The notes beneath the pieces were generated by a model. It saw only the letters and a list, made by a program, of their open reading frames with translations. It was not told the origin of the DNA and made no database searches. The position numbers and the translations under genes are program-made. Of a stretch of 64,000 bases of DNA, positions 51,140 through 59,166 are shown piece after piece (the stretch's first letter is position 1; each line of letters begins with the position of its first letter). The stretch is taken from NCBI GenBank assembly GCA_018266075.1, contig JAFEBB010000006.1:62001-126000 (forward strand), in the 5' to 3' direction. This stretch comes from Deltaproteobacteria bacterium. Lineage in GTDB: Bacteria; Myxococcota; Myxococcia; Myxococcales; SZAS-1.

Positions 51140-52858
51140 ATGGCCGAGCCGTTTGGTCGGTACAGCCTGCTCAAGCGCCTCGCCGGCGGCGGCATGGGAG
51201 AAGTCTTCCTGGCGCGCCAGGAAGGCATCCAGGGCTTCGAGAAGCTCCTGGTCATCAAGACGCTGCTGCCGCACCTCACGCAGAACAAGGAGTTCGTCGA
51301 GATGTTCCTCGACGAAGCCCGGCTCGCCGCGCGCCTGGCGCACCCCAACGTCATCCAGATCTTCGATCTCGGCCAGGTCGAGGACGTCTTCTACATCGCC
51401 ATGGAGTACGTCCACGGCGAGGACCTCAAGCGGATGTGGAAGCAGGCGTACCACGCCAAGCGCACCATCCCGACGCCCATCGCTGTCCGAATCGTCGCCG
51501 ACGCCGCCGCGGGCCTGGGCTACGCGCACCGGCTCGCGAACGCCGAGGGCCAGCCGCTGGGCCTGGTGCACCGCGACGTCTCGCCGCAGAACATCCTCTT
51601 GACCTTCGACGGCGGCGTGAAGCTCATCGACTTCGGCGTGGCCAAGGCCGCGGGCCGCGCCACCCAGACGCAGACCGGCGCGCTCAAGGGCAAGTACGCG
51701 TACATGAGCCCGGAGCAGGTGGAGGGCGAAGAGCTCGACCGCCGCAGCGACGTGTTCGCGCTGGGCATCGTGCTCTGGGAGATGACCACCGGCTCGCGCT
51801 TGTTCCGCGCCGAGTCGGACGTGGCGACGCTCAAGCTCGTCAGTCGCTGTGAAGTCCCGCCGCCGTCGCAGCAGAACCCGGAGGTTCCGCCGGCGCTCGA
51901 CCCCATCATCCTCAAGGCGCTCGCGAAGGACCGCGAGACCCGCTACCAGGACATGGAGGCCTTCCGGCTCGATCTCGAGAACTGGCTGGCCGAGACGCGC
52001 TCGCCGGGCTCGGCCGCGCACCTGGCCACGTACATGCGCGACCTGTTCTCGGCGCGGCTGGAGCGCGAGGGGCCCAAGGGCGCGCTGTCCGACGTGGACC
52101 CGGACGCCACCGGCTTCTCGCCCTTCGGCAACACCCGCAACGCGCGCGCACGGCCGACGTCGGAGACGGGCGAGTCGAGCCGCAGCCTGGTTCGCCCGAG
52201 CCAGATGACGGGCGACCTGGTGCAGACCCAGGCGCACGTGAAGGTGCCGGTGCCGCTGATGGCGCTGGGCGGCGCGGCGGTGCTCATGCTCGGCGCCATC
52301 GCCTACGGGCTGCTCAAGCCGCACGACGTGCCGCATAACGATCCGGTTAATATCGGCACGAACGATCCGCCCAAGGTGAAGCAGGGCGAGCTCAACGTGA
52401 CCTCCACGCCGAGCGGCGCGCAGGTGCTCGTCGATGGCGTGGACAAGGGCCTCACGCCCATGCAGCACCTGCAGCTCCCCAGCGACAAGCCGGTGCGCGT
52501 GGAGGTTCGGCTCGCGGGCTACAAGCCGTGGGTTGCGGAGGGTGTGAGCGTTCCCTCCACGCAGCTCGCCGCCCTCGAGGCGCTGCCGCCCAAGCAGGCC
52601 CAGGTGTCGCTGCGAAGCGAGCCGGCCGGTGCGACCGTCTTCGCCAATGGCCAGCCCATCGGCACCACGCCGGCCACCTGGACGACGTCGCCCGGCGCGC
52701 CGGTGACGCTGACCTTCAAGCTCAAGGGCTACCGCTCGCAGGAGAAGCAGATCACGCCGGGCCAGCAGAACGTGGCCGAGGCGAACCTGGTGCGCGAGAA
52801 GCCTTCGGGCAAGACCAGCGGCGGCGAATCGGCGCCGGCCATCAAGATGAACCGCTGA
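51140..52858 (+). CDS. Ser/Thr protein kinase with two PEGA domains
   Basis: A 572-residue receptor kinase. The kinase domain is at residues 7-285: glycine loop AGGGMGEV, Lys40 in LVIKTLL, catalytic HRDVSPQN at 144-151, DFG at 164-166, and MSPEQV. HRDVSPQN is the usual myxobacterial variant of the catalytic loop. One membrane helix spans about 371-392. The C-terminal extracytoplasmic part is two PEGA repeats (about 416-478 and 488-556): GAQVLVDGVDKGLTPMQ and GATVFANGQPIGTTPATW. PEGA domains are typical of surface proteins. The TonB-dependent receptor with its own PEGA domains follows 50 bp downstream, suggesting a sensing unit. Start is leaderless-like. Confidence 0.9.
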   Translation: MAEPFGRYSLLKRLAGGGMGEVFLARQEGIQGFEKLLVIKTLLPHLTQNKEFVEMFLDEARLAARLAHPNVIQIFDLGQVEDVFYIAMEYVHGEDLKRMWKQAYHAKRTIPTPIAVRIVADAAAGLGYAHRLANAEGQPLGLVHRDVSPQNILLTFDGGVKLIDFGVAKAAGRATQTQTGALKGKYAYMSPEQVEGEELDRRSDVFALGIVLWEMTTGSRLFRAESDVATLKLVSRCEVPPPSQQNPEVPPALDPIILKALAKDRETRYQDMEAFRLDLENWLAETRSPGSAAHLATYMRDLFSARLEREGPKGALSDVDPDATGFSPFGNTRNARARPTSETGESSRSLVRPSQMTGDLVQTQAHVKVPVPLMALGGAAVLMLGAIAYGLLKPHDVPHNDPVNIGTNDPPKVKQGELNVTSTPSGAQVLVDGVDKGLTPMQHLQLPSDKPVRVEVRLAGYKPWVAEGVSVPSTQLAALEALPPKQAQVSLRSEPAGATVFANGQPIGTTPATWTTSPGAPVTLTFKLKGYRSQEKQITPGQQNVAEANLVREKPSGKTSGGESAPAIKMNR

Positions 52859-52908
52859 CCCGACGTTGGGGGTCGAACTTTCGCCAGGGCTGGGGCACGA
52901 TTCGCTCC

Positions 52909-55761
52909 ATGCTCCGACGCTCGGTGGTCCTGGTCCTCGCGCTCGCCTCGCTGGCGGCGCCCCTCTCCGCACGCGCCGACGACCTCGCCGACGAAGCCGA
53001 GTTCCGCTTCCGACGCGGCGCCGAGCTCTACGCCAAGCGCGACTACCAGGGCGCGCTCGACGAGTTCTTCACCTCGAACCGGCTCGTCCACAACCACAAC
53101 GTGGCCTTCAACATCGCGCGCACCCTGGAGCAGCTGAACCGCGTGGAAGAGGCCTATCGCTGGTACGCGGGCATGCTCGAGGAGAACATCCCCGCCCCCG
53201 ACCGCAAGGACGTGCTGGAGAGCATTCAGCGCCTCTCGGCGAAGGTCGCGCTGGTGCGCGTGGAGAGCGATCCGCCCGGCGCCACGATCTACGTCGACCG
53301 CAAGGACCTGGGCGCCCTCGGCACCACCCCGCGCACCCTCGCGCTGCCGCCGAAGCCCGCGAAGATCATCCTCGAGCTGCCGGGGCACTATTCGCAGGAG
53401 AAGGGCGTCTCGATGGCGACGGGCAGGCAGCTCAAGGTCTCGCTCGCGCTGCCGACCATCTACGGCAAGGTGAAGCTGAACCTGAGCCCGTCCGAGGCGA
53501 CGGCGCACCTGGAAAAAGAAGACGGCGAGCTGCTCCACGACGGCGCGCAGGTCGTGCCCGGCCGGCACGTGATCTGGGTGGGCGCGCCGGGCTCGGTGCC
53601 GCAGACGCTGGACGTGAACGTGCCCGCAGAGGGCAGCGCCGAGGTGAAGGCCGCGCTGGTGCCGCGCCCGCCGCCGACCGGTGCGCTGGTGGTGCGCGCG
53701 AACGTGGACGGCGCGCTGATCATCGTCGACGGCAAGGAGAGTGGCTTCACGCCGGGCGTGGTCGAGGGCGTGACCGTGGGCAAGCACGCGGTTTCCATCG
53801 ACGCCGAGGGCCGCGAGCGCTTCACCCGCGACGTCGATGTGACCGCGAACGAGCGCAGCTTCGTGGACGCGCACCTGCGCTACGCCGGCCCCAGCGTGGA
53901 AGCCGCGACCAAGTCGCTCGCGCGCGCAAGCGACGCGCCGGGCAGCATCACCGTCATCACCCGCGAGGAGCTTCGCGCCTTCGGCTACCAGACCGTGGCC
54001 GAAGCGCTGCGCTCGGTGCGCGGCATCTTCGTGTCCGACGACCGCAGCTACACCACGCTCGGCTTTCGCGGCATCTCGCCGCTCGGCGACTTCAACAACC
54101 GCGTGTTGATCCTCGTCGATGGCCATGCGGTGTACGACCCGTGGGTCGACCAGGGCTACGTGGCCCGCGACCTGGACGTGGACCTCGACGACGTGGAGCG
54201 CATCGAGGTCGTGCGCGGCGGCGGCTCGGCGCTCTACGGCACGGGCGCGGTGTTCGGCGTGATCAACGTGGTGCACCGCGCGCCCGACGACGGCGCGCAC
54301 ATGGACCTCGAAGGCGGCCTGGGCAACCTCGCCGAGGAGCACGGACGCGCGACCGCGTCGATCGGCTCCGGCCACTTCGGCGCGTCGGCCACGGCCGCGA
54401 TGTACGACTCCGCCGGCGACGCCATCTACCGCTCGCCCGAGCCCGTCAACGGCCAGTCGCTCGTCCTCGACAGCGACGCCGAGCGCGCCTTCCACGCCGG
54501 GCTGCGGCTGCACGCGGGCGACTTCCAGCTGCTGGCCGACTTCAACAACCGCCGCAAGGACTCGCCTACCGGCCAGTACGACGTGCCCTTCGGCTACGGG
54601 CAGCGCTCGGTCGACGGCGTGGGCTTCGTGGAGGCGCGCTTCGAGCACGGCTTCGACTCGGGGATGCACGTCACCGCGCGCGGCTACTACGACGGCTCGC
54701 GCTTCCACGGCACGTACCCCACCGCGGGTGACACGGCAGACTCGGTCCTCACCACCCACGACCTGGGCGGCGCGGACTCCGTGGGCGCGGAGCTCCTCGT
54801 TCAGCTTCAGGAGTTGGTGCGGAACCACGTGAGTCTGGGCCTTCAGGCCGAGCACCACTTCAACGTGGTGACGTCGTCCGAGACCGACGGCGCGTACAGC
54901 ATCCATGACAACCGGTCGGAGAGCATCGGCTCGGCCTACCTGAACGACGAGCTGCGGCTGATGCCGGCGCTGAGCCTCGTGGCCGGCGTGCGGCTCGACG
55001 ACCACGTGGACTCGTTCGGCCTGGTGCTCGCGCCGCGCGCCGCGCTCATCGGCCACTTCTACGAGGGCGCGACCACCAAGCTGATGGTGAGCCGCTCCTT
55101 CCGCGCGCCGAGCGTCTACGAGCGCTACTACACCGACGGCATCTCCGAGGTGCCGGCGCTGAACCTGCAGCCCGAGCTCGGCCTCTCCGCCGAGCTGGAG
55201 CACACCCACCCGATCACGGACGAGGCGTCGATCACGGGCGCGTTCTTCTACAGCCAGCTCTCCAACCTCATCGACCTGCAGACGCGCAGCGACGGCTTCC
55301 TGCAGTACCAGAACTCGCCGGGCACCATTCACACCTGGGGCGGCGAGCTCGAGGTGCGCTATCGGCCCGGGCCGCTGCTGATGGTGAACGCCGTCTACAG
55401 CTACCAGCACACCCGCGACGACGACGCACAGCCGCTCGACAACTCCCCGGAACACACGGGCGCAGTGCGCGCCATGGTGCCGGTGGTGACGGACCTGCTT
55501 ACGGTGGGCACGGAGCTCGTCTACAACAGCGCGCGCTACGGGCCGCCGAACGACGCCGGCGAGCGCGTGCCGGTGGGCGAGGGGCTGAACTGGAACCTGG
55601 TGCTCTCGGGCTACTACCCGCGCTACCGGATCCGCTACCAGGCGAGCGTACTGAACGCGCTCGACCAGCACCTGGAGCAGCCGGCCACGGCGATGCCGCC
55701 GGGCGTGAACGTGGCGCAGTACGGGCGCCAGGTGCGGCTCAGCGCGGGCGTGACGTTCTGA
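52909..55761 (+). CDS. TonB-dependent receptor with N-terminal TPR and PEGA domains
   Basis: A 950-residue outer-membrane receptor with an unusual N-terminus. After a signal peptide (VVLVLALASLAAPLSARA) there is a TPR-like helical region at 28-110, then three PEGA-like domains (about 115-180, 185-250, 257-325; the clearest are DPPGATIYVDRKDLG and VDGALIIVDGKESGF). The plug domain begins about 335 (APGSITVITREELRAFGY; VLILVDGHAVYDP; VEVVRGGGSALYGTGA-like segment IEVVRGGGSALYG) and the barrel follows to the end (RLSAGVTF, aromatic C-terminus). It should transport a ligand using TonB. The ligand is unknown. It follows the PEGA kinase by 50 bp. Confidence 0.85.
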   Translation: MLRRSVVLVLALASLAAPLSARADDLADEAEFRFRRGAELYAKRDYQGALDEFFTSNRLVHNHNVAFNIARTLEQLNRVEEAYRWYAGMLEENIPAPDRKDVLESIQRLSAKVALVRVESDPPGATIYVDRKDLGALGTTPRTLALPPKPAKIILELPGHYSQEKGVSMATGRQLKVSLALPTIYGKVKLNLSPSEATAHLEKEDGELLHDGAQVVPGRHVIWVGAPGSVPQTLDVNVPAEGSAEVKAALVPRPPPTGALVVRANVDGALIIVDGKESGFTPGVVEGVTVGKHAVSIDAEGRERFTRDVDVTANERSFVDAHLRYAGPSVEAATKSLARASDAPGSITVITREELRAFGYQTVAEALRSVRGIFVSDDRSYTTLGFRGISPLGDFNNRVLILVDGHAVYDPWVDQGYVARDLDVDLDDVERIEVVRGGGSALYGTGAVFGVINVVHRAPDDGAHMDLEGGLGNLAEEHGRATASIGSGHFGASATAAMYDSAGDAIYRSPEPVNGQSLVLDSDAERAFHAGLRLHAGDFQLLADFNNRRKDSPTGQYDVPFGYGQRSVDGVGFVEARFEHGFDSGMHVTARGYYDGSRFHGTYPTAGDTADSVLTTHDLGGADSVGAELLVQLQELVRNHVSLGLQAEHHFNVVTSSETDGAYSIHDNRSESIGSAYLNDELRLMPALSLVAGVRLDDHVDSFGLVLAPRAALIGHFYEGATTKLMVSRSFRAPSVYERYYTDGISEVPALNLQPELGLSAELEHTHPITDEASITGAFFYSQLSNLIDLQTRSDGFLQYQNSPGTIHTWGGELEVRYRPGPLLMVNAVYSYQHTRDDDAQPLDNSPEHTGAVRAMVPVVTDLLTVGTELVYNSARYGPPNDAGERVPVGEGLNWNLVLSGYYPRYRIRYQASVLNALDQHLEQPATAMPPGVNVAQYGRQVRLSAGVTF

Positions 55762-55804: not shown

Positions 55805-56608
55805 ATGGCTCAGGTCTTTCGCGACGGGCTCTTGAAGGGCAAGGTGGCGTTCGTCACCGGCGGCGGCAGCGGCATCAACCTCGCCATCGCCGAGCGCTTC
55901 GCCGAGCACGGCGCCAAGGTCGCGCTCCTGGGCCGCACACCGGAGAAGCTCGACGCCGCGGTGAAGGGCATCGCCAGCAAGGGCGGCACCGCCATGGCCG
56001 TGCCCGCCGACGTGCGCGACTTCGCCGCGGTCGACGGCGCGTTCAAGAAGGTCGTCGAGGCCTGGGGCGAGATCGATCTCCTCGTCTGCGGCGCGGCCGG
56101 CAACTTCCCCGCGCCCGCGCTGGGCATGAGCGCCAACGGCTTCAAGGCGGTGGTCGACATCGACCTGCTCGGCACCTTCAACGCCATGCGCGCCGTGTTC
56201 GAGCACCTGCGCAAGCCGGGCGCCACGATTGTTAACATTTCGGCTACACAGGCCTTCACGCCCACGCCGCTGCAGGCGCACGTGTGCGCGGCCAAGGCCG
56301 GCGTGGACATGCTCACCCGCACCCTCGCCATCGAGTGGGGCCCCGCGGGCGTGCGCGTGAACTCCATCATCCCCGGGCCGATCGCGGACACCGAGGGCAT
56401 GCGCCGCCTCTCGCCGGGCGAGGCCAGCCAGGCCGCGCTGCGCGAGGTGCTGCCGCTGCAGCGCTACGGCGAGAAAGACGAGATCGCCGACCTCGCGCTC
56501 TTCCTCGCCAGCGACGCCGCCAAGTACATCACCGGCGCCACCGTGGCCTGCGACGGCGGCATGGGTCTCATCGGCTCGGGCGTGCTGATGAAGGTGCTCG
56601 GCGGCTAG
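55805..56608 (+). CDS. SDR-family protein, 2,4-dienoyl-CoA reductase-like
   Basis: A 267-residue short-chain dehydrogenase/reductase. The cofactor motif is VTGGGSGINLAIAERF (TGxxxGI) and NISATQAFTP holds the catalytic Ser region. The canonical Tyr of Y-x3-K is not there: HVCAAKAG has Val in that position. This and the sequence CGAAGNFPAPALGMSANGF match the peroxisomal/bacterial 2,4-dienoyl-CoA reductase group, which lacks that Tyr, so a role in unsaturated fatty-acid beta-oxidation is likely. GAGGAG precedes the ATG but lies in a hairpin. The stop overlaps that of the convergent VWA gene (CTAG). Confidence 0.85.
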   Translation: MAQVFRDGLLKGKVAFVTGGGSGINLAIAERFAEHGAKVALLGRTPEKLDAAVKGIASKGGTAMAVPADVRDFAAVDGAFKKVVEAWGEIDLLVCGAAGNFPAPALGMSANGFKAVVDIDLLGTFNAMRAVFEHLRKPGATIVNISATQAFTPTPLQAHVCAAKAGVDMLTRTLAIEWGPAGVRVNSIIPGPIADTEGMRRLSPGEASQAALREVLPLQRYGEKDEIADLALFLASDAAKYITGATVACDGGMGLIGSGVLMKVLGG

Positions 56609-59166
56609 TTCGGACTCTCGAAGTTGATGGGGTAGCTCACGGTCACCTCGCCGTTCGGCGAGGCCGGGAAGCGCCAGCGCTGGAAGCGGGTGAGTACGCA
56701 CTGGCCCACCTCAGCCTGCTTGAGCGTGTCCTCGGCGAGCTCGATCTTCGTGATGTGCCCGTCGGCGCCGAGGGTGAACTTCACCACCAGCTTGCCCGCG
56801 AGCTTGGGGTTCTTCTGCAGCTGCGACTCGTAACAGAAGCGGATCTCGCGCAGGTGCGCGTGGATGATGTTGCGGATGGCGCTGGTGTCGAGCGAGCCCG
56901 AGACCTGCGCGTCGCCGATGGCGGGCAGGCTGTAGCCCTTCTTGCCCATCTTGCCTTCATCGCCGCCGCTCTTGCCGCGACCTTCGCTGATGGTCCCGAG
57001 GCCGCCGAGCTCGCCGGTGCCGCCACCGCCCGCGCCCTGGCCGGAGATGACGCCGCCCATCCCCGCGCCGTAGCCGCTGATGGAGAGGCTCTTGAGCATG
57101 CCCGAGCTTGCGACCGCAGAGCCGTAGGCCCGACCGCCGAGGCCACCCACGCCGTGTCCGCCCAGGACGCCGTTCGACGCTTCTTCGGCGCCGGCCATGT
57201 GCGCGTCGGTGTCCTCCGGGACTTCGACCGGCTGGACGACGGTGTGCGGCTTGCCCATGGCCACCTTGTGGCTGCGGTCCACGGCGACGAACGAGGTGTA
57301 CGCCGTCGCCAGGTGGTAGCGCAGGCCGAGCTCGGTGATCTGCTTCTTGCGTGAATCGATCTTGCGCGTGCCGCTGAGCGCGTCGAAGGCCTGCGCGTTG
57401 GACAGCTCTTCGATCTGCGCGCGCGCCCAAAGCGTCTCGAGCTCTTCGCCGGAGCTCTCGCGGTCGGGCAGGGTCACGGCGAAGGGCAGGTCGATCGCCT
57501 GACCATCTTCGGTCTTGCCGCGCACGTGGATGGTGGTCGCGCCGCCGTGGCCGTAGAGGCCCTGGATGATGAGCGGCTTCGACAGGAACAGATCCGGCGA
57601 GACCGCGGGCGTGACCTCGCGGACGTCGAGGCCGTTCCAGTCCACGCTGAGCGCTTCGATGATCGGGTGATCGATGCGGCGGAAGAACGCGTCCACGCCG
57701 CGGCGCGGATCCTCGCGGTTGGTCGCGTAGACGGTGGCACCGTTGCCCGCGCTGGCGATGCCGTCGAGGAGCGCGCGGTTCGGCGCCGAGCCCACGCCGA
57801 AGCTGAAGACGCGACCGATCTGGCTCTTCTCCGCGAGGCCTTCGGTGTACTTGTGCGTCGCGCCGATGAGCTCCGCGTCGTTGCCGACCCAGCCGTCGGT
57901 GAGGAAGAACACGTAGCGGCGCCGGCCCTGCTCGACGTCGGGCGCGAGCGCGCCGGTGATGGCGCTGAGCATCTCGGTACCGCCGCCCGCGCGCATCTTC
58001 TCCACGAAGCCCAGCGCGTCGCCCACGTTCTCAGGCGTGGCGCGGCGCGGCTTCTCGAAGGCGAACTGGGTGGCGCCGCTGAAGGTGAGGATGTTGAAGG
58101 TGTCGTCGGGGCGGAGGCGCGAGAGCGCGTCGCGCATGGCCTCCTGGCAGAGCCAGAGCGGCAGGCCCCACATTGAGCCGGAGATGTCGACGACGAAGAG
58201 GATCTCGCGCTTGCCCACCAGCTGATCCACGTTCAGCTCGGGCGGCTGGAGCACGACCGCGAACGCGCCGGTGGCGTCGGTCTTGTGCGCGAGCACGGAG
58301 ACGGACGGCTGCGCGCCGTGCACGCGGTAGCGCAGCACGAAGTCGCGATTGGGAATCGTCTCGTGATCGGCGAGGGCGAGGTGGTAGCGGCCGGTGCCGT
58401 TCGCGGTCATCGCGACGTCGTGGCTCGGGACTTCCGGCGTCTCGATGGCGCGACCGGCGTTCACGTCGACGGCGATGCTCACGTCGTGGCCGCTTCGCGT
58501 GCCCGAGGGCAGCACCGGGGGCGAGATGCGCGAGGCATCCGGCACGCGAGCCGTGTCCGCGCGCGTGCCCGTGCCCGTGGCGGCTCCGCTCGGCGCACCG
58601 GGCACGTAGCGCGGTCCGACCACGAGCGGAAAGACGAACTCGTACTCGCCGGCGTCGTAGTTGAGGAGCTCGCTGAACCGAATGGTGATGTGTATCTGCT
58701 CGCCCGGCGGCAGGTTCGCGACGGACTGCGTGAAGATGTTCGGACGCTCCTGCTCGAGGAGGGCGGCGGTGTGGCCTTCGCTCCTGGCCTGCTCGTAGGT
58801 GCGCTTGGCGTCCTCGCGCTTTCGGACCTCGGCTTCGATGTGGCGATCGCCGGCCACCAGCGTGAAGCCCTCGACCGCCGAGTGCTCCGGAAGCGGGAAG
58901 GTGTAGATGGCCTCGATGGGATCCGGCGACGCGTTGGCGAAGACCTGATCCACCACCACCCGCGCGACGAAGCCGTCGATCTCGGCCTTCACGTCGGTGT
59001 GGCGCACCGGGAGCTCGAGCGCTGCGTCGCCTTTCACTTGAAGGTGCGGCAGCTCGCCGGGAGAGCCCATGGGGCTGAGCGCGTCGCGACCTTGGGCGAA
59101 CGCGGACGTGCTGAGAGCGAGGCCGGCGAGCGTGAGGCTCGCCAGGCCGGTGAGGGCAGGGCGCAT
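56605..59166 (-). CDS. VIT/VWA protein with AgmX/PglI-type C-terminal domain
   Basis: An 853-residue exported protein. A signal peptide (LTLAGLALSTSAFAQ) precedes a VIT domain at about 45-185 (VRHTDVKAEIDGFVARVVVD; YTFPLPEHSAVEGF), then a von Willebrand A domain from about 290 with the metal site DISGSMWG. A Gly-rich segment (about 660-740) and a C-terminal domain of about 90 residues follow (LREIRFCYESQLQKNPKLAG; RFQRWRFPASPNGEVTVSYP), the AgmX/PglI tail known from myxobacterial gliding and secretion proteins. It may display an adhesion domain outside the cell. AGGAGG precedes the ATG at 59166. Function inferred from domains only. Confidence 0.85.
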   Translation of the reverse strand: MRPALTGLASLTLAGLALSTSAFAQGRDALSPMGSPGELPHLQVKGDAALELPVRHTDVKAEIDGFVARVVVDQVFANASPDPIEAIYTFPLPEHSAVEGFTLVAGDRHIEAEVRKREDAKRTYEQARSEGHTAALLEQERPNIFTQSVANLPPGEQIHITIRFSELLNYDAGEYEFVFPLVVGPRYVPGAPSGAATGTGTRADTARVPDASRISPPVLPSGTRSGHDVSIAVDVNAGRAIETPEVPSHDVAMTANGTGRYHLALADHETIPNRDFVLRYRVHGAQPSVSVLAHKTDATGAFAVVLQPPELNVDQLVGKREILFVVDISGSMWGLPLWLCQEAMRDALSRLRPDDTFNILTFSGATQFAFEKPRRATPENVGDALGFVEKMRAGGGTEMLSAITGALAPDVEQGRRRYVFFLTDGWVGNDAELIGATHKYTEGLAEKSQIGRVFSFGVGSAPNRALLDGIASAGNGATVYATNREDPRRGVDAFFRRIDHPIIEALSVDWNGLDVREVTPAVSPDLFLSKPLIIQGLYGHGGATTIHVRGKTEDGQAIDLPFAVTLPDRESSGEELETLWARAQIEELSNAQAFDALSGTRKIDSRKKQITELGLRYHLATAYTSFVAVDRSHKVAMGKPHTVVQPVEVPEDTDAHMAGAEEASNGVLGGHGVGGLGGRAYGSAVASSGMLKSLSISGYGAGMGGVISGQGAGGGGTGELGGLGTISEGRGKSGGDEGKMGKKGYSLPAIGDAQVSGSLDTSAIRNIIHAHLREIRFCYESQLQKNPKLAGKLVVKFTLGADGHITKIELAEDTLKQAEVGQCVLTRFQRWRFPASPNGEVTVSYPINFESPN

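Follow-up and report, generated by a model that had tools for sequence, protein, structure and literature searches.

A conserved myxobacterial gene pair encoding a Ser/Thr kinase with a periplasmic C-terminal tail and a TonB-dependent receptor with a TPR-PEGA extension

Genes and domains of the locus

The DNA analysed (hereafter the window) was a stretch of 64,000 nucleotides, in which a transmembrane Ser/Thr kinase gene is followed on the same strand by a TonB-dependent receptor gene. Coordinates of both genes and of their parts are collected in Table 1. An earlier note, made from the sequence alone, had described a kinase with two PEGA domains next to a TonB-dependent receptor, and this arrangement was confirmed.

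Table 1. Features of the kinase and receptor genes, in window coordinates.
Feature	Position	Strand	Remarks
Ser/Thr kinase gene, transmembrane product	51140..52858	+	572 aa; active-site motifs intact
Kinase catalytic domain, residues 8-274	51161..51961	+	Pfam PF00069, E 1.2e-37
Kinase membrane helix, single, approximately residues 373-393	52256..52318	+	sequence, hydropathy
Kinase PEGA domains, two, periplasmic	52382..52789	+	Pfam; 0-2 copies among paired orthologues
Kinase C-terminal periplasmic tail, APAIKMNR-COOH	52832..52855	+	motif conserved among orthologues
TonB-dependent receptor gene	52909..55761	+	950 aa; sequence, Pfam, orthologues
Receptor signal peptide, MLRRSVVLVLALASLAAPLSARA	52909..52977	+	sequence
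Receptor TPR-like helical domain, five helices	52978..53244	+	conserved SNRLVxNRNVxFNIARCxE; AlphaFold2; orthologue Pfam
Receptor PEGA / transthyretin-like beta domains, three	53245..53880	+	Pfam, AlphaFold2, PDB likeness
Receptor plug domain, residues 340-451	53926..54261	+	Pfam; TonB-box-like stretch before plug (VxAASK in orthologues)
Receptor outer-membrane beta-barrel	54298..55758	+	Pfam 538-899; nearest solved folds Cir, BtuB

The motifs LLVIKTL, VHRDVSPQN, LIDFGVAK and YMSPEQ (catalytic Lys, HRD, DFG and activation segment, read from the sequence) predict an active eukaryotic-like Ser/Thr kinase. The best NCBIfam score was to the PASTA kinase model NF033483; at 278.7 bits this lay below the cut-off of 450, and the match was limited to residues 6-293, which is the kinase domain. 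Pfam placed the better of the two PEGA stretches at residues 488-550 (E 1.4e-17) and the other at approximately 415-484. The C-terminal stretch ends in SAPAIKMNR.

The receptor probably starts at the ATG at 52909, 50 nt past the kinase stop codon. The listed open reading frame begins at a GTG at 52528; this is an unlikely start, since the frame from there overlaps the kinase gene. Plug (PF07715, 81.8 bits) and barrel (PF00593, 103.8 bits) both scored above their curated cut-offs and, together with the fold, identify the product as a TonB-dependent receptor. A full-length model (pLDDT 77) matched Cir and BtuB best, and FpvA was also matched.

Before the plug, Pfam called two PEGA stretches (E 3.7e-23) and no STN domain. 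In the window receptor itself Pfam made no TPR call. Among 16 orthologues, TPR_2 was called in 15, PEGA in all 16 and CarboxypepD_reg in 15. Residues 24-335 were modelled with AlphaFold2 using eight natural sequences; the model (mean pLDDT 92) comprised five helices and, after them, three beta domains, in agreement with the TPR and three PEGA-like domains of the earlier note. On comparison with the PDB, the beta domains resembled carboxypeptidase N/D regulatory domains and SpaA pilin / prealbumin-like domains, and are therefore fold relatives of the carboxypeptidase-regulatory-like extension. The earlier note had called the extension non-standard. This stands in that STN is absent; the contrast drawn with carboxypeptidase-regulatory-like extensions is a soft one, given the CarboxypepD_reg calls and the PDB likeness. 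A carboxylate-clamp identity was considered for the TPR domain and was not adopted: the sole PDB sequence match was HOP TPR1 (E 0.66, not significant), and the Asn alignment also fits the general TPR consensus, so that the clamp is a lead only.

Distribution of the receptor and conservation of the pair

Genes in related genomes were called with a simple codon-usage caller; the source genome assembly consists of 166 contigs. A clear receptor match was present in about half of 60 genomes of the order, most matches spanning the full length including the extension. Across 195 Myxococcota genomes, the receptor with its full N-terminal extension was found in approximately 104, reaching another class (family f11) and being nearly universal in the large-genome family f3, taken to be Myxococcaceae. 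Among the named records whose receptor carries the extension are Myxococcus llanfairpwllgwyngyllgogerychwyrndrobwllllantysiliogogogochensis, Corallococcus carmarthensis, a Polyangiaceae MAG and Sorangium cellulosum So ceGT47. A myxobacterial-type pair was also present at L167 (CAMAWH010000006.1), a record titled as a Klebsiella pneumoniae MAG; this label is probably wrong.

Outside f3, a same-strand kinase gene lay directly upstream of the receptor in all 21 primary copies with readable upstream DNA (f1, 1; f2, 5; f7, 6; f10, 1; f11, 4; L167-L170, 4), which represent two or more classes. One of the six f7 pairs had a gap of approximately 0.5 kb between kinase and receptor. In f3 the kinase orthologue, with its tail retained, was mostly 40-60 kb from the receptor on the same contig; it was adjacent or one gene off in G102, G098 and G099 and at the second receptor copies of G094, G098 and G074. 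Tight co-expression is therefore inessential in f3. No close kinase was found in one receptor-bearing genome (G030), and a few f7 receptor paralogues had no neighbouring Ser/Thr kinase. One receptor paralogue (G029, L060:7751-11589) directly followed a two-helix histidine kinase instead, with a 4-base overlap.

The genes flanking the pair differed between genomes and were unrelated housekeeping genes, so the unit that is kept is the pair and not a larger block. Conserved downstream substrate or transport genes were ruled out on the same grounds. ExbB and ExbD genes lay beside the receptor in G009 only, directly downstream of it (L041:6111-7285). In the window the receptor's neighbours are the kinase, an SDR and a VIT/VWA protein, and no FecR-like anti-sigma or ECF sigma genes are adjacent. 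The VIT-VWA protein (56605-59166, minus strand; marine sortase-target-like), two genes downstream of the receptor, carries a TonB_C / AgmX-PglI C-terminal domain. The kinase and receptor genes thus form a genuine conserved two-gene unit across Myxococcota, so that one condition under which the earlier note held its proposal refuted, a pair not conserved in related genomes, does not apply.

The C-terminal tail of the paired kinases

The number of PEGA domains in the paired kinase was not constant. Pfam called two in the window kinase, one in the f3 kinases and in L167 and L169, and none in the Sorangium kinase L170 or in the f11 kinases L144, L145 and L147; none was seen by eye in L146. The receptor PEGA domains persist across this variation of 0, 1 or 2.

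A feature missed in the earlier note was constant. After a Pro/Lys/Gly-rich periplasmic linker (KPKPRPKPKPKPKP type in f11 kinases), the paired kinases end in (L)(D/G)IKxxR-COOH. Among 31 kinases the last residue was Arg in 31, position -5 was Ile in 28 and position -4 was Lys or Arg in 28; the motif was absent from 28 control kinases of the same genome set. Examples are LGIKTGR (f3), LGIKAER (f7), LDIKIGR and LDIAIGR (f2), LDIKTGR (f10), and LDIKLER and PDIKTER (f11, in kinases that retain the tail without PEGA). PEGA-bearing paralogous kinases, by comparison, stop at the last beta strand and are tail-less.

A 24-base DNA pattern for the tail was matched in 75 of 104 receptor-bearing genomes versus 3 of 91 receptor-less genomes (Fisher 1e-25, a value that overstates independence because the genomes are related). 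The reversed pattern, used as control, was matched in 3 genomes. All 30 tail-pattern matches examined were the ends of kinase open reading frames. Within f7, f3 and f11 the receptor-less genomes also had no tail pattern, G133 (87% complete) being the one that did. The receptor-bearing genomes without the exact pattern, among those checked, mostly had variants (DIKTTR, DIKTSR, VIKTTR, DIKTAR, SIKKDR, GIKGTR, NIKKGR).

Kinases L167-L170 separate tail from lineage. In a maximum-likelihood tree of catalytic domains all four lay far from the main clade, L167 and L168 grouping with the kinases of a second receptor class described below (supports 100/97) and L169 with L170 in yet another position (supports 100/99). 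Despite these other catalytic lineages, three of the four, each beside a receptor of the window's class (class A), end in DI(K/R)xER (DIRTER, DIKMER and DIRLER in L167, L168 and L169); the Sorangium tail of L170 is degenerate (RLREHR). The tail goes with the receptor class and not with the kinase lineage. In the paralogue pairs L156/L160 the tail has drifted to SPFKTKxxR and two TPR residues that are invariant elsewhere, R71 and E74, are absent, in what is a single event.

Other kinases with TPR partners

The source genome has 116 Ser/Thr kinase matches. In this genome the receptor's TPR module also matched a second TonB-dependent receptor and several further secreted proteins, each encoded after a Ser/Thr kinase gene; at least eight kinase genes have the gene of a secreted TPR protein immediately downstream, and their products carry short tails of this kind. 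Apart from the window kinase, 66 kinases had readable C-termini. For 7 of them the next gene encodes a TPR partner (HMM E 3e-16 or better; the HMM seed included five of the 7 and not the other two), and for 59 the same HMM gave none. All 7 end in a Pro/Lys/His-rich linker and a short tail. A family of kinase/TPR-partner pairs with class-specific C-terminal tails is proposed, in which a kinase gene lies directly upstream of a gene for a secreted TPR-module protein; the window pair has this gene order.

The second receptor class has TPR and no PEGA before the plug (source genome L003/L268, C28:84150-88218) and lies directly downstream of a Ser/Thr kinase gene. Of the 195 Myxococcota genomes, 103 have this class. 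Wherever the end of the kinase upstream of it was readable, the tail was YKDDPY, FKDNPY or a close variant ([YF]KD[DN]PY). For the type-C partner, few orthologues were found among the relatives searched.

Six further kinase genes directly 5' of a secreted TPR-(PEGA) gene were noted in the source genome (L364-L369, L257, L248; contigs C4, C3, C20, C5, C8, C24), with tails LIDATNF, LVPADSL, LINPDDVIN, KNPYGP, VKGDDLFK and TVDPFAN. Several of the TPR-(PEGA) products at these loci have C-terminal membrane helices.

Comparison with known systems

The TonB-dependent receptor FecA has an additional N-terminal domain in the periplasm. Its gene adjoins that of the inner-membrane protein FecR, which presumably makes contact through its periplasmic C-terminus. 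The window pair is similar to FecA-FecR-FecI in having a receptor with a periplasmic N-terminal domain, encoded beside an inner-membrane protein with a periplasmic C-terminus as contact candidate. It differs in that the receptor has no STN, the partner is a Ser/Thr kinase and not an anti-sigma regulator, and the candidate contact is a short tail in place of a folded C-terminal domain. With SusC/Oar-type receptors, which have an N-terminal carboxypeptidase-regulatory-like domain, it shares a transthyretin-like beta domain before the plug; here, unlike there, there are three such domains together with a TPR domain, and the partner gene encodes a kinase.

The kinase resembles PASTA and other one-pass kinases (PknB family) in its cytoplasmic kinase domain, single membrane helix and extracytoplasmic domain. 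Unlike PASTA kinases, the kinases of these pairs have PEGA domains or nothing folded on the outside, and in place of PASTA repeats there is a conserved peptide at the C-terminus. By analogy it may also be likened to TonB, with an inner-membrane anchor, a Pro/Lys-rich periplasmic linker and a C-terminal end directed towards an outer-membrane receptor, although it has no TonB C-terminal domain and its linker is attached to a kinase.

In the open-licence papers searched, no description of such a pair was found, nor any link between PEGA and TonB-dependent receptors or between Ser/Thr kinases and TonB-dependent transducers; absence there is no proof of novelty.

Proposed mechanism and alternatives

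Signalling between kinase and receptor across the periplasm, as the earlier note suggested, is the most likely use of the pair. With slightly better than even confidence, the two genes are considered to encode a two-protein transenvelope signalling unit in which the kinase tail docks on the TPR-PEGA domain of the receptor. The receptor sits in the outer membrane with its TPR and three-PEGA domain hanging into the periplasm. The inner-membrane kinase would span the periplasm through its Pro/Lys-rich linker, with PEGA domains as optional spacers, and present (L)(D/G)IKxxR-COOH at its end. This peptide would dock on the receptor N-terminal domain, most likely on the TPR part. Loading of the receptor with substrate, driven by TonB, would alter the tail contact and through it kinase activity or clustering, and the kinase would in turn phosphorylate cytoplasmic targets. 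The TPR domain is favoured as docking site because every partner has it, even those with no PEGA or no barrel, and because R71 and E74 changed in the one event in which the tail did. By analogy with FecA-FecR, we infer TonB-dependent uptake as input and kinase activity as output; the direction may be the opposite, the kinase controlling transport.

The earlier note had placed the contact in the PEGA domains, which would face each other in the periplasm. Both window proteins carry them. Contact of this kind appears quite improbable, since Pfam calls no PEGA in the paired f11 and Sorangium kinases and one in others, yet the tail stays, and PEGA kinases occur elsewhere without such a receptor next door. 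The best candidate for the contact with the receptor is the periplasmic C-terminal peptide and not the PEGA domains that both proteins have. Alternatively, the tail could direct sorting or degradation of the kinase, for instance as a C-terminal degron or PDZ ligand, the pairing having some other cause, and a short peptide at the extreme periplasmic C-terminus would suit such a role. We give this little credence: a general signal should not vary with the class of the neighbouring receptor (A, IKxxR; B, KDDPY) and would be expected on unrelated proteins, whereas every pattern match examined was one of these kinases.

It is also conceivable, though rather unlikely, that kinase and receptor are regulatory neighbours that never touch, the kinase controlling receptor synthesis or transport genes and the tail binding TonB/ExbD, peptidoglycan or Tol-Pal. 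The separation of the genes in f3 and the ExbB and ExbD genes behind the receptor at L041 fit this reading. A common partner such as TonB would predict neither that the tail type tracks receptor class across kinase lineages nor that receptor-less genomes nearly always have no tail. TPR and PEGA domains abound in myxobacteria, and an ordinary receptor with a decorative extension might have come to lie beside a kinase by chance or hitch-hiking. This is very improbable indeed, being contradicted by the conserved order in 21 of 21 copies across classes with different flanking genes; other TPR partner genes in the source genome likewise follow a kinase.

Significance

Docking of the kinase tail on the receptor would be an undescribed way to carry a signal through the cell envelope, and the pair would give a transenvelope pathway with phosphorylation in place of an anti-sigma factor. 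Because the tail peptide is small, the idea can be tested directly in relatives of Myxococcus xanthus. A myxobacterial genome encodes some hundred Ser/Thr kinases or more, and the pair would offer a concrete input for one of them. A review states that the reason for the large size of the myxobacterial kinome is unknown (PMC4880591). More tentatively, and with somewhat less than even confidence, the pair may exemplify a general and undescribed myxobacterial design, in which one-pass Ser/Thr kinases carry a periplasmic C-terminal peptide recognised by the TPR domain of a secreted protein encoded next door. Each partner class would have a tail code of its own, and two of the classes are TonB-dependent outer-membrane receptors. 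If true, this design wires outer-membrane transport directly to cytoplasmic Ser/Thr phosphorylation.
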